Source of the DNA: Cellulosimicrobium marinum
GTDB lineage: Bacteria; Actinomycetota; Actinomycetes; Actinomycetales; Cellulomonadaceae
Length of the DNA stretch: 64,000 nucleotides
Direction: 5' to 3'
Assembly (NCBI RefSeq): GCF_020551945.1
Contig: NZ_JAJBZH010000006.1
Coordinates: 124,001 to 188,000, forward strand
Position 1 is the first letter of the stretch. Each line of letters starts with the position of its first letter. The notes under the pieces are model-generated. The model ran no database searches, had not been told where the DNA came from, and was given only the letters and a program-made list of their open reading frames with translations. Shown here one piece after another: positions 15,242 to 33,793 of the stretch. Both the position numbers and the translations under genes were made by a program.

Positions 15242-15970
15242 TCAGAGGCTGCGCAGCACCGACACGACGCGCCCGAGGACCTGTGCGTCGTCCCCGACGA
15301 TCGGCTCGTACGCCGGGTTGTGCGGCATGAGCCACACGTGCCCGTCGGTGCGCTTGAAGGTCTTCACCGTCGCCTCGCCGTCGATCATGGCCGCGACGAT
15401 CTCGCCGTTCTCGGCGACCGGCTGACGCCGCACGACGACCCAGTCGCCGTCGCAGATCGCCGCGTCGACCATCGAGTCGCCCTGGACGCGCAGGAGGAAC
15501 AGCTCGCCGTCGCCGACGAGCTGACGCGGCAGGGGGAACACGTCCTCGACGACCTGCTCGGCCAGGATCGGTCCGCCGGCGGCGATGCGTCCCACGACGG
15601 GCACGTACGAGGGCGCCGGGTGGGCCTCGTCCACGGACGCCGCGTGGGAGCGGGCGGGGGAGCGCTCGACCGTCCGTGAGTCGTCGGGCTGGACCACCTC
15701 GATCGCCCGAGGGCGGTTCGGGTCGCGGCGCAGGAAACCCTTGCGCTCGAGGGTCGTGAGCTGGTGCTTGACGGAGGAGGGGCTCGTGAGACCGACGGCC
15801 TCGCCGATCTCGCGCATGCTCGGCGGGTAACCCCGCTGGTCGACGCACGAGCGGATCGTCTCGAGCACCAGGCGCTGGCGCGGCGTGAGCCCGTCACCGC
15901 CCGCCGTGCCGTCGGGGAGCTCGCGCACCTCGGCGAGCCTGCCGCCCGACTCCCTGCCACGTCCCGCCAT
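15242..15970 (-). CDS. lexA: LexA repressor
   Basis: 242 residues from ATG 15970, which has a GGAG nine bases upstream. The winged helix-turn-helix ([26 protein letters not shown]) recognises SOS boxes; the S24 peptidase-like domain has the Ala131-Gly132 cleavage bond in GRIAAGGP, Ser166 in GDSM and Lys203 in ATVKTF, so autocleavage should work. The frame continues to ATG 16120, adding 50 low-complexity residues; a CATGTT inside the SOS box would put the transcript start there. I prefer 15970 by family length. Autoregulation is shown by the LexA boxes upstream. Confidence 0.95.
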
Positions 15971-16123
15971 CGTCGTCTCCGCCCTCGTCGCCTCGTCGCC
16001 TCGCGGTCGCCGGCCCGTGGTCCGCCGCCCTGCCGTCGGTGCGCGTGGTGCCGTCGCCACGTGGCCGCGGGACATGTCCGGCGAACCGACCTGCCCCCAG
16101 GCTAGGGGAGAGGGCGCCATGAA

Positions 16124-16139
16124 TCAAACATGTGTTCGA
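16124..16139. promoter_or_regulatory. LexA (SOS) box 1, at the lexA promoter
   Basis: Minus-strand reading TCGAACACATGTTTGA, a near-perfect match to the actinobacterial LexA palindrome TCGAAC-N4-GTTCGA. It overlaps the likely lexA -10 region. Confidence 0.85.
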
Positions 16140-16176: not shown

Positions 16177-16207
16177 TCGTACAGACGTTCGACGTACACG
16201 TGTTCGA
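16177..16207. promoter_or_regulatory. LexA box 2 and a weaker adjoining box 3, at the LysM gene promoter
   Basis: TCGTACAGACGTTCGA (16177-16192) matches the palindrome at 11 of 12 positions. The next 16 bases (16192-16207) end in GTTCGA with a weaker left half. They lie about 100 bases before the LysM gene ATG. Confidence 0.7.
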
Positions 16208-28307: not shown

Positions 28308-29300
28308 TCACGAAGGCGGCGACGAGGTGCGCGACGGCGCGTGCGACGGGTCCGGGACGTCGTCGGGCCGTGCGGGCGCCGGCGGGTCGTCGATCGGGCG
28401 CGCCGTGCCCACGAATGCCGCGAGGTCGTGCCCGACGAGCACGCTGGCGGGCTGGGGCAGCGCGCGGGCGGCGCGGGCGAGCGCGGGCCCGGCGAGGTCC
28501 GGCGCCCGCTCGCCCGGCCGGGATGCCGCGAGGACGAGGTTGCCGTAGCGGCGGCCCTTGAGCTGGCCGGGCTCGGCGAGGACGGCGAGGCGGGCGTCGT
28601 AGGGCGTCGAGGCGCCCCCCCGGTCGTCGGCGCTGACGAGCGCGAGGGTCGCCAGCTCGCGCCGCACGGTCCCCAGCGGCGGACGGTCGGCGCAGTTCAC
28701 GAGGTAGATGCCGCCCGGGCGCAGCACGCGGCGCACCGCGGCGGCGGTCCCGGCCGTCGTGAGGTGCTCCGGGGTCGCGTCGCCCGCGAAGACGTCCCGG
28801 ACGACGACGTCGAACGACGCGTCGCCGAAGGACTCCAGGACCGCGCGGGCGTCTCCCGTCCGCAGCCGCAGGCGGGGCGACCGGGGGAGGGCGAACCACT
28901 CGCGGACGAGCTCGAGGAGCCGGGCGTCGAGGTCGACGCCGACCTGGGCCGACCCCGGTCGGGTGTGCTCGACCCAGCGTGCGAGGCTGCACCCGGCCGC
29001 GCCGAGGTGGAGCACCCGCAGGGGTCCGGCGGGAAGGAGGTCGACGACGGCCGCCATCTGCTGCATGTACTCGAACCCGAGGAACCCGGGGTCGTCGAGG
29101 TCCAGGTGGGAGCTGGGGACGCCGTTGACGTAGAGCGTGACGGCGCGGGGGGCGTCCGGGTCCGCCTCGACGCGTGCGGTGCCCGTGGCGATCGGGACGG
29201 GGCCGTCGGGGAGCGCGGGAGCGGCGGCCGGGCCGCGACGTCTCCCGGGTGTGGGTGGCGTGGTGGACCCTGGGACGGGTCGACGCGAACGGCGGGCCAT
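28308..29300 (-). CDS. Spermidine-synthase-like methyltransferase-fold protein
   Basis: 330 residues from ATG 29300, leaderless by the TACGGT box six bases upstream. An N-terminal strand motif (VNGVPSSHLDLDDPGFLGFEYMQQM) and a Rossmann core VLHLGAAGCSLARWVEH, GVDLDARLLELVREWF, DVVVRDVFAGDATPEHL. The typical polyamine-synthase GGGDG is replaced by LGAAGC, so true spermidine synthesis is doubtful; this subgroup is annotated as spermidine synthase or fused MFS/spermidine synthase-like protein. No speD neighbour. Pro-rich tail. Confidence 0.85.
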   Translation of the reverse strand: MARRSRRPVPGSTTPPTPGRRRGPAAAPALPDGPVPIATGTARVEADPDAPRAVTLYVNGVPSSHLDLDDPGFLGFEYMQQMAAVVDLLPAGPLRVLHLGAAGCSLARWVEHTRPGSAQVGVDLDARLLELVREWFALPRSPRLRLRTGDARAVLESFGDASFDVVVRDVFAGDATPEHLTTAGTAAAVRRVLRPGGIYLVNCADRPPLGTVRRELATLALVSADDRGGASTPYDARLAVLAEPGQLKGRRYGNLVLAASRPGERAPDLAGPALARAARALPQPASVLVGHDLAAFVGTARPIDDPPAPARPDDVPDPSHAPSRTSSPPS

Positions 29301-29306
29301 GCGCCC

Positions 29307-29312
29307 ACCGTA
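29307..29312 (-). promoter_or_regulatory. -10 box of the spermidine-synthase-like gene
   Basis: TACGGT on the minus strand, six bases before ATG 29300. Confidence 0.6.
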
Positions 29313-29330
29313 GTGCGGGGTCGCGGGACG

Positions 29331-29359
29331 TTGACACTATCGAACAGGTGTTCGATAGT
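29331..29359 (+). promoter_or_regulatory. SOS promoter of the HEPN-dinB operon
   Basis: TTGACA (29331-29336), 17 bases, GATAGT (29354-29359). A perfect LexA palindrome TCGAACAGGTGTTCGA (29340-29355) fills the spacer and reaches the -10, the classical position for tight repression. Start of transcription is expected near 29366. Confidence 0.88.
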
Positions 29360-29377
29360 GAGTCCGGGAGGTGTCGC

Positions 29378-29821
29378 ATGGCGAACGTCGCGAACGGCAG
29401 GGTTCCGTCGGTCGTGCCGGTGGACGTCGGCAGGCTGCTCGCGCGCGCGGACGCGGAGCTCGTCGCCGCGACGTCCGCGACGGACCCCGCGGAGCGGTTC
29501 CTGCACGCGCACCTCGGCGCGCTGCGCGCGGCGGCCGCGGTGGTCGCGCTGCGTGCGCGTCCCCAGCGCCGGGGACGTGCCCGCGCCGTGTGGGACCAGC
29601 TGGCCGACGCCGAGCCGTCGTTGGCCGCGTGGACCACGTACTTCGCGGGGGGTGCGCGGGTGCGCGCCGCGCTCGACACGGGTCGGCTCGACACGGTCGA
29701 CGCCCGGCGCGCGGACGAGCTGCTCGCGTGCGCGGAGGACTTCCGTGACGAGGTCGCGATGCTCGTCGACCCTGCCGCCGGTTTCGCCGTGCTCCCGGTA
29801 CCGAGGACGGTGGCGTCGTGA
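29378..29821 (+). CDS. SAV_6107-type HEPN-domain protein, SOS-regulated
   Basis: 147 residues from ATG 29378 with GGGAGG upstream. All-helical: VGRLLARADAELVAATSATDPAERFLHAHLGALRA, a second helix pair, and AWTTYFAGGARVRAAL. This fits the SAV_6107 HEPN family of actinobacteria. Other HEPN proteins are RNases with an R-x4-6-H motif; RFLHAH here formally fits R-x4-H, but catalysis is unproven. The LexA box in its promoter and the coupled dinB downstream indicate a role in the DNA-damage response. No antitoxin-like partner is seen. Confidence 0.82.
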   Translation: MANVANGRVPSVVPVDVGRLLARADAELVAATSATDPAERFLHAHLGALRAAAAVVALRARPQRRGRARAVWDQLADAEPSLAAWTTYFAGGARVRAALDTGRLDTVDARRADELLACAEDFRDEVAMLVDPAAGFAVLPVPRTVAS

Positions 29822-29886
29822 CCGGGGCCGGCGCGGTGCGTGCGACCGCCGTCGCGCCGCGACACGCCCCGCGCCGGGCGACATGA
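29818..29886 (+). CDS. Possible 22-codon relay ORF between the HEPN gene and dinB
   Basis: GTG 29818 overlaps the HEPN stop (GTGA) and its own TGA (29884-29886) overlaps the dinB start (ATGA). The peptide is rich in Ala, Arg and Pro. dinB has no clear ribosome site, so this ORF may carry ribosomes across the gap. Confidence 0.4.
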   Translation: MTGAGAVRATAVAPRHAPRRAT

Positions 29887-31139
29887 GCCGGGGCCCCCGC
29901 GCGACCGTCCGCCGGGACTGGGGCGACGACGAGGAGGGGTGCTCCATCCTCCACGTCGACATGGACGCGTTCTTCGCCTCGGTCGAGCTCGCGCGGCGCC
30001 CGGAGCTGCGCGGCCGGCCGGTGATCGTCGGCGGTGCGGAGCGCGGTGTCGTCCTCGCGGCGACGTACGAGGCGCGGGCGTACGGGGTGCACTCGGCGAT
30101 GCCCATGGTCCAGGCGCGACGGGCCTGCCCGCAGGCCGTCGTCGTGCCGCCCGACCACCGGCGCTACCACGAGGTGTCGCGCTCGGTGATGGCGATGCTC
30201 GGGGAGGTCACCGCCCTCGTCGAGCAGGTGAGCGTCGACGAGGCGTTCCTCGACGTGAGCGGAGCCCGCCGCAGGGTCGGGCCGCCCTCCGTGATCGGCG
30301 CCGCCCTGCGCCACCGGGTCCAGGCGGAGCACGGGATCACCTGCTCCGTGGGGATCGCGACGACGAAGTTCGTCGCCAAGGTCGCCTCGACGCACGCCAA
30401 GCCGGACGGCATGCTGCTCGTCCCGGCCACCGCGACCGTGCCGTTCCTGCGGGAGCTGCCGGTCGGGGCGCTGTGGGGCGTGGGGGAGAAGACGGAGGGC
30501 GTGCTCGCGCGCTGGGGGATCCGGACGGTGGCCGAGCTCGCCGACACCGACGTGCGCGTGCTGCAGGCGGCCGTCGGGACGGTCACGGGTGCCCACCTCC
30601 ACGACCTCGCCTGGGGTCGCGACCCACGCCCGGTGCGCCCCGAGCGGGCGGAGCGCTCCGTCGGCGCCGAGACGACGTTCGACCACGACCTGCGGGACCT
30701 GGACGCCGTCCAGGCGAAGGTCCTCGAGCTCGCGGACCGCTGCGCGGGACGGCTGCGCGCGCAGGAGGTCGTGGCGCGCACCGTGAGCGTCAAGGTCCGC
30801 ACGAGCGACTTCCGGACCGTGACGCGCAGCCGCACCCTCGGTGCACCGACGGACGTCGCGCGCGAGCTCTACCTCGTCGCGCGCGAGCTCGTCGCGGGGG
30901 TGGACCTGCACGGGCTCGCGGTGCGCCTCGTCGGCGTCCGGGCCGAGGGCCTCGCGCCGCGCGACGAGACCGCCGTCCAGCCGACGCTGGACGAGGCGGT
31001 CGACGAGCGCGGGGACGCCCGGCGCCGCGCGGAGGCGGCGATGGACGCGGTCCGGGGCCGGTTCGGGGTGAGATCCATCGCGTTGGGACCCCGCGAGGCC
31101 CGCTCGACTACCATGCCCGCAGATGTCGATCTATCCTGA
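29883..31139 (+). CDS. dinB: DNA polymerase IV (Y family)
   Basis: 418 residues from ATG 29883. Catalytic Asp26 in HVDMDAFFASVE, Asp119-Glu120 in SVDEAFLD, the YEARAYGVHSAMP steric stretch, KFVAKVAS and a little-finger domain (SVKVRTSDFRTVTRSRTL). It copies past damaged bases at the cost of accuracy. It shares the LexA-controlled promoter of the HEPN gene. No standard beta-clamp pentapeptide was recognised at the C-terminus by eye. The start is fixed by ATGA overlap with the relay ORF, upstream of the conserved region by about 20 residues. Confidence 0.94.
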   Translation: MSRGPRATVRRDWGDDEEGCSILHVDMDAFFASVELARRPELRGRPVIVGGAERGVVLAATYEARAYGVHSAMPMVQARRACPQAVVVPPDHRRYHEVSRSVMAMLGEVTALVEQVSVDEAFLDVSGARRRVGPPSVIGAALRHRVQAEHGITCSVGIATTKFVAKVASTHAKPDGMLLVPATATVPFLRELPVGALWGVGEKTEGVLARWGIRTVAELADTDVRVLQAAVGTVTGAHLHDLAWGRDPRPVRPERAERSVGAETTFDHDLRDLDAVQAKVLELADRCAGRLRAQEVVARTVSVKVRTSDFRTVTRSRTLGAPTDVARELYLVARELVAGVDLHGLAVRLVGVRAEGLAPRDETAVQPTLDEAVDERGDARRRAEAAMDAVRGRFGVRSIALGPREARSTTMPADVDLS

Positions 31140-31176
31140 GGGTGACACTCGACCACCGCGGAGAAACGGGGTGCTC

Positions 31177-31566
31177 ATGCCTCTGTCGGAGTACGAGCAG
31201 CGGGTTCTGGAGCAGATGGAGCGCGCGCTCACCTCGGACGACCCGCGGCTGGCGAACACGCTGCAGTCGCCGCGCCGTCGTTCGGCGCTGCGTTTCGTCC
31301 TGGCCGGCGTCGGAGTCGTCGGCGGCCTGCTGCTCCTCGTCCTCGGCGCGGCCACGTCCATGACGTGGCTCGGCGTCGTCGGCTTCGTCCTGATGTTCGT
31401 CGGCGTGGTGCTGGTCTTCCAGGCGCCTCGGTCCCGCAAGGGGCCCGTCGGGACCGTCGCTGCCGACGGGACGGTGCGGCCCGCGCCTGCCGCACCGCCG
31501 CGCAAGGCGTTCCTCAGCCGGCTCGAAGAGCGCTGGGAGCGCCGTCGCGAGCAGGGCGGTCGCTGA
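31177..31566 (+). CDS. DUF3040 membrane protein
   Basis: 129 residues from ATG 31177 (MPLSEYEQRVLEQMERAL is the usual DUF3040 start; GTG 31171 is an in-frame alternative). Two adjacent membrane helices (FVLAGVGVVGGLLLLVLGAA and WLGVVGFVLMFVGVVLVFQA) and a basic C-terminal tail. These small proteins regularly sit just upstream of mraZ in actinobacteria. Function unknown. Its final 53 bases overlap the 3' end of the convergent transglutaminase gene. Confidence 0.88.
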   Translation: MPLSEYEQRVLEQMERALTSDDPRLANTLQSPRRRSALRFVLAGVGVVGGLLLLVLGAATSMTWLGVVGFVLMFVGVVLVFQAPRSRKGPVGTVAADGTVRPAPAAPPRKAFLSRLEERWERRREQGGR

Positions 31567-33793
31567 GCGCCAGCCGCGCACCGACGACGACGGCCTCGAC
31601 CAGCTCGCCCAGCCTGTCCGGCGCGAGCGACGGGGCCGTCGTTCGCGCGTAGCGCACGCGCTCGACCTCTTCGCACAGCGTCACGAGCGCGGACAGCGCC
31701 TCGTCGCCGAGCGGGTCGCCGCTCCTCTCCACGACAGCTGCGTTGACGGCCGTCGGGACCTGCCGCGGCGTGGCGGACGCCGGCCACCCGACGTCGAGGG
31801 CGGACAGGCGCCCGCCCAGCTCGGTCCAGGCGCCCTCCGCGTCCTGGGTGCCACCCCTGCTCGAACGGCGGCGCGCGAGGACCCAGGCCGTGACGGCGAG
31901 GCCGAGCACGACCAGGGCGGCGAGGACGAGGATCCACGGCACGCCGTCGTCCTGCGAGGTCGTCGTCACCGCCGACGGCCCGGTCGTCGCCGTCGTCGGC
32001 GTCGGTTCCGCCGACGGCGTGACGGCCTCGCCCGGGGTCTGCGCGTCCTCCGGCAGGGGGAACCCGGGCGCCCCGGCGTCCCCGACCGGGATCGCCCAGC
32101 GGGGTGCGGCACCGGTCTGCTGCGCGGGGGTCGGTTCGAACCGCACCCAGCCCTGACCCGGGAAGTAGAGCTCCGGCCACGCGTGGGAGTCCTGGCCCGT
32201 GACCTCGAAGCTGTCGTCGCCCACCTCGGTCCCGGGGAGGAAGCCCACCCCGAGGCGCGCGGGGATACCGAGGGACCGGGCCATCATCGTCATCGACGTC
32301 GCGAACTGGACGCAGTACCCCGTCCGGTGCTGGAGGAAGTCCCACACGGCGTCGCCGGTCTCGCCCGCGGGTACCTGGGTCGAGTACGTGAACGTGGTCG
32401 TGTCCCGGAAGAACGTCTGCAGGGCCAGCGCCTGGTCGTACCGGGTCGCGGCGTCCCCGGCCACCTGGGCGGCGAGCTCGCGGATCTCCTGCTCGTGCAC
32501 GGAGGCCGGGACGTCGAGGTAGTTCGGGTCGTCCGGGTCGGCGCCGCGCGCCTCGCGCAGCGTCTCGGCGTCGAGCGGTCGCGGGTACACGGTGACGCCG
32601 TACCGGGTGCCGGCCGACGTCGGCCGGTCGCCGACGACCTCGTCGCGGACCGGGTCGTACCGCCAGGCGCCGTCGCTGTCGAGGCTCCGCGGCTCGGTCG
32701 GCACGGGCAGCTTGGCGTCGCGCAGCGACTCGATGGTGACGTCGACGTCGGCGGGCTCGCCCGGGTCGGTCTCCTCGGGCCAGAGCAGCGCGCCCGGGTC
32801 CTCCACGGGGTCGCCGGAGCGATCCGCTCCGCGGCGCCAGTTCGTCCCGTCGAAGCCGGTCAGCGTGAAGACGCGCAGGGGCCCGAGCTCGGCCGCGTCG
32901 GTGCGGTAGCGCAGGACCACCTGGTCCGAGCGTTCGGCGAGGTCGCGCCGCATGTCCAGGTCGTCGGAGAGGCGCACGGTCTCCCCGGTCGAGGCGAAGA
33001 GCCTCGACCACGACGACGACGCGACCTCCGGGAGGTTGGCGCTCGCCCCGGAGACACCGAGCCCGACGACGGCCACCGCCAGCGCGGTGGCTGCCGCGGC
33101 GGCGGCGCGGAGGCCGCCTGCCGTCCGGTGCGACGACGACGGCGCGGCGGCGCGCCGTGCGGTGCGGTGCGGGTTGTCGACGGCGAGGAGCAGGACGAGG
33201 GCCGCGACCGTCAGCACGAACGGCACGGCGGGGACGTCGCCGACGATGACGAGCCCGGGGACCCACAGGGCGAGCAGGGGAAGCCCGGTCGCCGCGGCGA
33301 TGCGCAGGCCGCCGGCGAGCAGGTCCGCCACCAGGAAGACGACGACGGTGCCGCCCACGGCGAGCAGCTCGATCGGCAGGCTCGGGCCGATGGGGGCGAC
33401 CTCGGCGAGGGTGAGCTCGCGGGCCGTCACCAGGCGGGAGGCGAGGCGATCGGCGTTGGAGAGGCCGATGAGGACCGAGAAGCGGTCGGTGGGTCCGCCG
33501 TAGAGGCCGAGCAGGCCCCAGGCGCCGACGAGCAGGCCGGCGGCGGAGGGGAGGAGAGCGGCGGGGGGCGCGAGCGTCTCCCCGCGGGAGGTCGCGGACC
33601 GCTCGAGGAGCCAGCGCGTCACGCCGGTGACGACGGCGAGGACGAGGACCGTGCGCACGCCGGTGCGGGTCCAGTCACCGGGACCGATCACGGCACCCAG
33701 GGCGTGCATGGACGCGAGGACGGCGACGGTGACGCACGCGGTCGTGGCCAGCGTGCGGCGCCCAGGTGCGCCCGTGGTCCTCGGTGAGCTCAT
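31514..33793 (-). CDS. Transglutaminase-like membrane protein
   Basis: 759 residues, ATG 33793 overlapping the DUF58 stop (ATGA). Five or more N-terminal membrane helices, a DUF3488-type extracellular region, then the transglutaminase core: Cys in RTGYCVQFATSMTMMARSLGIPAR, His in DSHAWPELYF and a following Asp-like position, then a Pro/Thr linker, a further membrane helix (WILVLAALVVLGLAVTAWVLA) and a cytoplasmic tail. It belongs to the MoxR-DUF58-transglutaminase trio whose substrate is unknown; cell-envelope or chaperone-related roles have been suggested. Confidence 0.9.
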   Translation of the reverse strand: MSSPRTTGAPGRRTLATTACVTVAVLASMHALGAVIGPGDWTRTGVRTVLVLAVVTGVTRWLLERSATSRGETLAPPAALLPSAAGLLVGAWGLLGLYGGPTDRFSVLIGLSNADRLASRLVTARELTLAEVAPIGPSLPIELLAVGGTVVVFLVADLLAGGLRIAAATGLPLLALWVPGLVIVGDVPAVPFVLTVAALVLLLAVDNPHRTARRAAAPSSSHRTAGGLRAAAAAATALAVAVVGLGVSGASANLPEVASSSWSRLFASTGETVRLSDDLDMRRDLAERSDQVVLRYRTDAAELGPLRVFTLTGFDGTNWRRGADRSGDPVEDPGALLWPEETDPGEPADVDVTIESLRDAKLPVPTEPRSLDSDGAWRYDPVRDEVVGDRPTSAGTRYGVTVYPRPLDAETLREARGADPDDPNYLDVPASVHEQEIRELAAQVAGDAATRYDQALALQTFFRDTTTFTYSTQVPAGETGDAVWDFLQHRTGYCVQFATSMTMMARSLGIPARLGVGFLPGTEVGDDSFEVTGQDSHAWPELYFPGQGWVRFEPTPAQQTGAAPRWAIPVGDAGAPGFPLPEDAQTPGEAVTPSAEPTPTTATTGPSAVTTTSQDDGVPWILVLAALVVLGLAVTAWVLARRRSSRGGTQDAEGAWTELGGRLSALDVGWPASATPRQVPTAVNAAVVERSGDPLGDEALSALVTLCEEVERVRYARTTAPSLAPDRLGELVEAVVVGARLALSDRPARDGAPSALRAG

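Follow-up and report, generated by a model that had tools for sequence, protein, structure and literature searches.

This study revealed that genes for SAV_6107-type HEPN proteins (PF18726) stand behind LexA/SOS boxes in most of the sampled families of the class to which Cellulosimicrobium marinum belongs, so that their regulation by LexA is well supported. The locus at issue lies in a 64,000-nucleotide (nt) stretch of the C. marinum genome (contig NZ_JAJBZH010000006.1, positions 124,001 to 188,000 of the forward strand; hereafter the window), where such a box precedes a HEPN gene and dinB, which encodes DNA polymerase IV (Pol IV). The partners of HEPN were found to vary or to be absent while the box stays; the constant feature is therefore LexA control of HEPN and not the HEPN-DinB pair. 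Given that HEPN stands behind a LexA switch in most carriers sampled, often beside error-prone polymerases, it is probably an overlooked part of actinobacterial emergency DNA repair. With regard to its role, we tentatively favour, at a little under an even chance, a non-nucleolytic accessory of SOS translesion synthesis or damage tolerance.

A first-pass annotation of the window, made from the sequence alone, had placed a perfect LexA palindrome at the promoter of one SOS operon comprising HEPN and dinB, and both the coordinates and the operon were borne out (Table 1). The sequence from 29330 to 29380 reads GTTGACACTATCGAACAGGTGTTCGATAGTGAGTCCGGGAGGTGTCGCATG. Within it, the box TCGAACAGGTGTTCGA is the only exact match to TCGAACN4GTTCGA in the window. 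A sigma-70-type scan of 29250-31700 returned a single site, TTGACA-17-GATAGT (mean for shuffled sequence 0.0); the box takes up most of its 17-nt spacer and extends over the two leading bases of the -10 hexamer. TTGAC is likewise found at the left edge of the box in most of the 27 boxed named relatives described below. The HEPN open reading frame (ORF) belongs to PF18726 (96 bits, cut-off 27.2, residues 31-126). The dinB product exceeds the cut-offs of four NCBIfam Pol IV models, for the best-scoring model by a small margin (389.3 against 389), and no terminator-like site was found in the 61-nt gap between the two genes. HEPN-dinB in the window is thus confirmed as an SOS operon under a LexA box.

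The box at 29340 is the genome's own SOS operator, since boxes with at most one mismatch occur at 38 places genome-wide (6 of them exact), against 2 for a reversed control, and include sites before recA, lexA and imuB-/dnaE2-like genes. Two one-mismatch boxes (16124-16139 and 16177-16192) lie upstream of the gene that we take, from its translation, to be lexA, about 13 kb from the HEPN-dinB operon. recA, also named by reading its translation, is preceded by a one-mismatch box just outside the window (L276:2568). On contig 10, dnaE2 follows an exact box at a distance of about 2.5 kb, and the same stretch carries an imuB-like gene (L277, 539.5 bits); a separate SOS imuB/dnaE2 locus is therefore present. 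The genome contains a single PF18726 match.

A PF18726 match was obtained in 93 of the 198 genomes sampled from the order, in 247 of 394 from the class, probably Actinomycetia to judge by its named members, and in 36 of 396 from a phylum sample; 21 of these 36 belong to the class or closer. The main sample comprised 120 HEPN loci from 119 genomes (one genome being represented twice) and 47 families, spread over genera; each locus was fetched as 3.6-13 kb, some ending at contig ends. The loci were chosen by genus and not by box. Nevertheless, the choice was not blind, because the 1.5-kb flanks of 60 HEPN loci had been looked at beforehand and had already suggested boxes. Large families were thinned, the family labelled f37 accounting for 36 of the 247 class matches and for 1 of the 120 loci. 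A second sample consisted of 80 named loci, and 200 loci (L076-L275) were scanned in total.

Within 500 bp of the operon head, the best box was perfect in 88 of the 120 loci and had one mismatch in 19, two in 4 and three or more in 9. A box with at most one mismatch was thus present in 107 loci, compared with 0.4% of 2400 control windows; when the 1.6 kb upstream of HEPN were considered, the figures were 110 of 120 loci and 9 of 496 control windows. The ten unboxed loci comprise four from f11, three from f22, one each from f1 and f37, and L193 (f15), and 45 of the 47 families have at least one boxed HEPN locus. One f15 genome carries two SAV_6107 HEPN genes (L193 and L194), one in a standard boxed operon and the other unboxed, upstream of a DUF6504 gene. 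The first-pass annotation had made its proposal depend on conservation of the pair and the box in relatives, which was upheld: a box lies upstream of HEPN in 27 of 28 named relatives (L076-L103). A conserved LexA box at the promoter supports membership of HEPN in the LexA regulon of actinobacteria, and its suggested role as a damage-response partner is plausible.

The box was more variable in two groups. Among the 80 named loci, 43 had [TC]GAACN4GTTC[GA] between -4000 and +500 of HEPN and 37 did not; 33 of these 37 are of a Streptomyces type, HEPN-methyltransferase-DUF3040. Their best box had one mismatch in 1 of 33, two in 13 and at least three in 19. In three of the 12 Streptomyces-type loci listed, the best site lies at -191/-192; it looks decayed and was not counted as support. 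In a genus of 61 genomes, likely Corynebacterium, HEPN was found in 60. All 30 loci analysed from this genus contain DUF3040, and a box with at most one mismatch was present in 11 and with at most two in 20 (controls: 1.3% of 291 with at most two), the other 10 having at least three. Outside the class, the phylum sample yielded 15 PF18726 matches, 5 of them over the Pfam cut-off. The 15 corresponding regions (3.4-12 kb, several ending at contig ends) gave no polymerase profile match; the HEPN profile matched in 13, and the only box with at most one mismatch was in L316, where that profile finds nothing. In the samples examined, boxed HEPN was therefore seen only within the window's class.

The box follows HEPN and not dinB. 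Thirty loci with at least 4.5 kb of downstream and 1.5 kb of upstream sequence had no SOS-type polymerase within 5 kb by profiles, and the box was kept in 25 of them, representing 10 of 12 families. Conversely, in 27 genomes without PF18726, a box with at most one mismatch lay within 1.4 kb upstream at 1 of 30 dinB loci; nine of these loci still stand before DUF3040, of which only L318 is boxed. These HEPN-less counts are not independent events, because the genomes are related to each other. The coupling of HEPN to DinB proposed in the first-pass annotation therefore stands only in part: the pair recurs in relatives, but DinB is one of several partners, and the box is kept without any polymerase.

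Retention of the box at the 25 polymerase-less loci would also be expected if HEPN were an SOS effector of its own, either RNase-like or a checkpoint arresting growth or division, with the polymerases merely sharing its box. Its home locus beside DUF3040 and mraZ, a cell-division cluster, would suit such a role, as would a weak match to the phage-defence candidate PADLOC PDC-M05B (E 8e-7 for L104 and 0.006 for L105; none for the window protein). However, changing polymerase modules around HEPN would be unexpected for an unrelated effector, and a search of phages and plasmids with one HEPN query gave no match. Together with the residue evidence given below, this leads us to regard an independent effector as unlikely, although far from negligible.

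With regard to its neighbours, HEPN shares a gene run with an SOS-type polymerase in 79 of the 120 loci, a linkage expected of a translesion accessory subunit. The runs contain a DnaE-like protein with DinB (40), DinB (23), a DnaE-like protein (9) or ImuA'-ImuB-DnaE2 (7); the other 41 have no such polymerase, part of which is due to short contigs. Pfam and NCBIfam served to identify the seeds for the neighbour profiles, which were applied to all 200 loci and revealed no fusion of HEPN to a profiled neighbour. Whole or in part, the loci commonly follow the order YbaK (divergent), box, DUF6504, HEPN, DnaE-like, methyltransferase, DinB and DUF3040, with a median gap from the HEPN stop to the next profile start of 22.5 bp before DnaE-like (n=50) and 47 bp before DinB (n=17). 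The DnaE-like protein (L105) has PHP, alpha NTPase and finger domains, and scores 561 against the cut-off of 939 of the NCBI error-prone DnaE model, while lying above the polc superfamily cut-off. DUF6504 (PF20114) heads many of these operons, e.g. at L105:9389-9805, and may be a standalone ImuB-C domain; the hhalign match between the two was weak (probability 4, E 0.01), and a Pfam scan of two ImuB proteins showed no DUF6504.

In Cellulosimicrobium, Oerskovia, Isoptericola and Cellulomonas, the usual order is a divergent methyltransferase-like gene, box, HEPN, DinB and DUF3040. The divergent methyltransferase profile ('MTw') adjoins HEPN in 9 of 9 f1 and 4 of 4 f13 loci of the main sample, and DUF3040 adjoins HEPN or dinB in many of the 200 loci. 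In a few Cellulomonas (L100, L116, L117) DinB is missing from the locus and HEPN and the box are kept; in L088 both DinB and the box are missing. The operon of the window is best explained as a shortened version, particular to its lineage, of an ancient SOS operon of actinobacteria, an interpretation that we hold, taken as a whole, with slightly less than even confidence.

ImuA'-ImuB-DnaE2 follows HEPN in 4 loci and precedes it in 3. In the latter, one of which ends before imuA, HEPN has its own box between dnaE2 and HEPN. As this module occurs on either side, the link between HEPN and the polymerases is not one frozen gene order. This bears on the possibility that the arrangement is a legacy of gene order by the mraZ cluster, the box serving the whole operon and HEPN being uncoupled from the polymerases. 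Such a legacy could account for the recurrence of the order YbaK/DUF6504-HEPN-DnaE-like-methyltransferase-DinB-DUF3040, whole or in part, across many families, and for loci in which HEPN has neither a polymerase nor a near-exact box, among them L161, L207, L249 and the 33 loci of the Streptomyces type. It is nevertheless improbable in view of the two placements of ImuA'-ImuB-DnaE2 and of a box that stays with HEPN when polymerases are absent and is rare at HEPN-less dinB.

Table 1. Features of the HEPN-dinB locus and of the lexA gene in the window
Feature	Position	Strand	Evidence
-35 hexamer TTGACA	29331..29336	+	Promoter scan
LexA/SOS box	29340..29355	+	Sequence and pattern search
-10 hexamer GATAGT	29354..29359	+	Promoter scan
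Probable ribosome-binding site GGGAGG	29366..29371	+	Read from sequence
SAV_6107-type HEPN protein, 147 amino acids	29378..29821	+	PF18726, E 2e-27
dinB, DNA polymerase IV, 418 amino acids	29883..31139	+	Pfam IMS 2.7e-52, IMS_C 9.9e-32
DUF3040 protein, downstream neighbour	31177..31566 (probable start; longest ORF begins at 31123)	+	PF11239, 1.4e-26
Divergent methyltransferase-like gene, upstream operon boundary	28308..29300	-	Profile match
Presumed lexA (longest ORF), repressor of the box	15242..16120	-	Read from translation

Other LexA sites of the genome showed some additional features. The DnaE2 encoded at 86675-90661 of contig 10 aligns in three blocks, which are interrupted by additional sequence around query residues 530 and 870; relatives within the family show breaks at roughly these positions too, which suggests variable insertions. 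On contig 3, an exact box (L278:1203) precedes a short ImuA'-like frame (ORF 1383-1697) that resembles a remnant or a stray copy; no ImuB or DnaE2 was recognised by eye in 9.5 kb. A further exact box (contig 10:400522, L036) lies in the start region of a gene that appears radical-SAM-like from its translation.

The HEPN protein is predicted to adopt an all-alpha HEPN fold. An AlphaFold2 model from 36 sequences (predicted local distance difference test score 89.6), which superseded a single-sequence model scoring 67, places helices at residues 15-33, 37-59, 71-78, 80-91, 93-100 and 109-130. Foldseek ranked HEPN domains first, although weakly (best E 0.089, none below 0.001). VIA gave 2hsb at the top (Z 15.3, root-mean-square deviation 2.3 over 117), followed by the sacsin HEPN domain 3o10 (13.2), 1ufb (13.1) and 1wol (12.6), with HEPN toxins at about 9-10 and the first clearly other fold at 8.7; scores below about 13 may be frequent among helical bundles. 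By title, all top rows except 1ufb are HEPN domains.

Across 120 aligned proteins, the best-kept residues are W72 (120), R50 (117), F122 (116), R96 (109), R40 (104) and H45 (95). The first-pass annotation had noted, allowing for chance, that the stretch RFLHAH fits the R-x4-H motif of HEPN ribonucleases (RNases), a motif that usually lies in a late helix. This assignment was rejected: R40 and H45 occur together in 81 of 120 proteins, and in the model RFLHAH lies at the beginning of helix 2. Within columns 85-130, an R-x4-6-H of any kind was present in only 16 of 120, so that a conserved catalytic motif is lacking; R96 was considered as a catalytic arginine, and no claim is made for it. Other HEPN domains are RNases, a further point for an effector, but R-x4-6-H is marked 'No' for SAV_6107, for which the part of that source covering the family gives no domain fusion (PMC3710099). 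As the motif is neither conserved nor in the expected place, RNase activity is unlikely.

The conserved R50, R96 and W72 could also line a pocket, as would be required if HEPN were a nucleotide or second-messenger sensor tuning the SOS response (e.g. to deoxynucleoside triphosphates or a cyclic nucleotide) and not a polymerase adaptor. Some HEPN domains are known to be related to the substrate-binding domains of nucleotidyltransferases (PMC3710099), and the nucleotidyltransferase-like chain 3c18 appears among the structural neighbours of the model (Z 10.8). Beside HEPN in the window, however, no gene for an enzyme that would produce such a ligand was recognised, and we consider a sensor very unlikely.

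For the accessory role that we favour, the mechanism may be pictured as follows. RecA filaments forming on damaged DNA would lead to cleavage of LexA and free the box, whereupon HEPN would be made together with DinB. HEPN would then act without RNase chemistry, perhaps as a small helical adaptor or a nucleotide-binding accessory of SOS gap filling or translesion synthesis, and would work with whichever polymerase the lineage uses, even one encoded elsewhere. Put more broadly, and with somewhat greater reserve, a catalytically dead SAV_6107 HEPN could be a general, so far overlooked component of actinobacterial SOS mutagenesis, serving DnaE-type polymerases, DinB and ImuB-DnaE2 alike, and a LexA target widely kept in the class.

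Several observations weigh against this interpretation. A box kept by HEPN where no polymerase is nearby would be just as compatible with a function other than translesion synthesis, and shared ancestral gene order by DUF3040 and mraZ explains part of the HEPN-DinB linkage. Where ImuA'-ImuB-DnaE2 lies upstream, it need not form one operon with HEPN, because HEPN has its own box there. The main exception is the Streptomyces type, with no polymerase and no exact box among the 33 named loci. L318 has a boxed dinB without HEPN, and the four f11 loci, whose HEPN matches are weak, have dinB and no box was found. The share of boxed loci would also be lower by genome than by family, because f37 was thinned so strongly. 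HEPN is evidently dispensable, since 105 of the 198 genomes from the order and 147 of the 394 from the class gave no PF18726 match. Absence of the strict motif is compatible with other RNase chemistry. Finally, a beta-clamp motif, which is not universal among translesion accessory subunits, was found in 6 of 120 C-terminal tails (shuffle mean 3.6), which is no enrichment over chance for the consensus used. A Q-x-x-L-P motif (with [LMI] at the fourth place) was rejected as a clamp motif, being unlike the clamp consensus. It recurs in 32 of the 120 tails (mean of 1.7 in shuffles, a comparison that overstates its significance because the tails are related by descent) and was not observed in the family of the window; 9 of 9 f1 loci lack the looser Q-x-x-[LMIF].

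If the accessory role is correct, a HEPN domain would be used in DNA damage tolerance and not in RNA cutting or toxin systems. The way in which actinobacteria recruit and restrain error-prone polymerases is relevant to induced mutagenesis, and the search for further components of these complexes continues. The HEPN gene, boxed in nearly every family sampled and found beside several polymerase modules, is a concrete and easily deleted candidate.

Published work on a probable orthologue agrees with LexA control. In Corynebacterium glutamicum, cg2381, a 'conserved hypothetical protein', is reported as a member of the LexA regulon and as induced by ciprofloxacin with an M value of 3.86, equal to that of recA, and cg2378 is mraZ (PMC5055667). 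This species matched PF18726 among our control genomes, and the place of cg2381 by mraZ fits; on these grounds, cg2381 is likely the orthologue of HEPN. The first-pass annotation had also made its proposal depend on damage induction, which is thus reported for a likely orthologue in another species. In Streptomyces venezuelae, dnaE2 and dinP were induced in a LexA study (PMC9380542); HEPN did not turn up in the accessible part of that study, in which it was not searched for. In the literature retrieved, as far as its text was available, SAV_6107 is named in PMC3710099 with no link to SOS, and DUF6504 and PF18726 are not named. Among the matches listed for imuB and dnaE2, HEPN is not named. Among those listed for LexA, the SOS response and translesion synthesis, a HEPN domain is named once in the portions available, in a paper on a Salmonella RNA repair operon.

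Comparison with known systems revealed both shared and distinct features. HEPN-MNT toxin-antitoxin pairs (HepT/MntA) share the HEPN fold, with the VIA values of the toxins given above. In contrast, the proteins described here have no conserved R-x4-6-H, and a scan of the window met a methyltransferase and DinB beside HEPN and no MNT nucleotidyltransferase. YolD/YqjX, partners of Gram-positive Y-family polymerases, resemble HEPN in being encoded by a small SOS-induced gene beside such a polymerase, sometimes distant with its own LexA site, but differ in their predicted SH3-like barrel and their host group (PMC6511836). The SRAP and ImuB-C neighbours of SOS genes are likewise small proteins without a known function that came to light through their conserved linkage to several mutagenic polymerases. 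SRAP acts as an autopeptidase and ImuB-C is predicted to be beta-rich, whereas HEPN is all-alpha, was seen boxed in our samples only within the window's class, and is unmentioned in the available part of that work (PMC3765255). The actinobacterial ImuA'-ImuB-DnaE2 mutasome, which shares a gene run with HEPN in 7 of the 120 loci, also combines a LexA-boxed polymerase with non-catalytic helpers. HEPN, however, is neither RecA-like nor of the Y family, and the imuB/dnaE2 locus of the window's genome is separate. Lastly, the DnaE2B-ImuB-C-PolY-RecA modules of Actinobacteria are described in a main text from which the word HEPN is absent (PMC12926913), and the DUF6504-ImuB-C match is weak. Nevertheless, they combine a DnaE-like and a Y-family polymerase with a small standalone protein, and probably correspond to the DUF6504-HEPN-DnaE-DinB loci described here.

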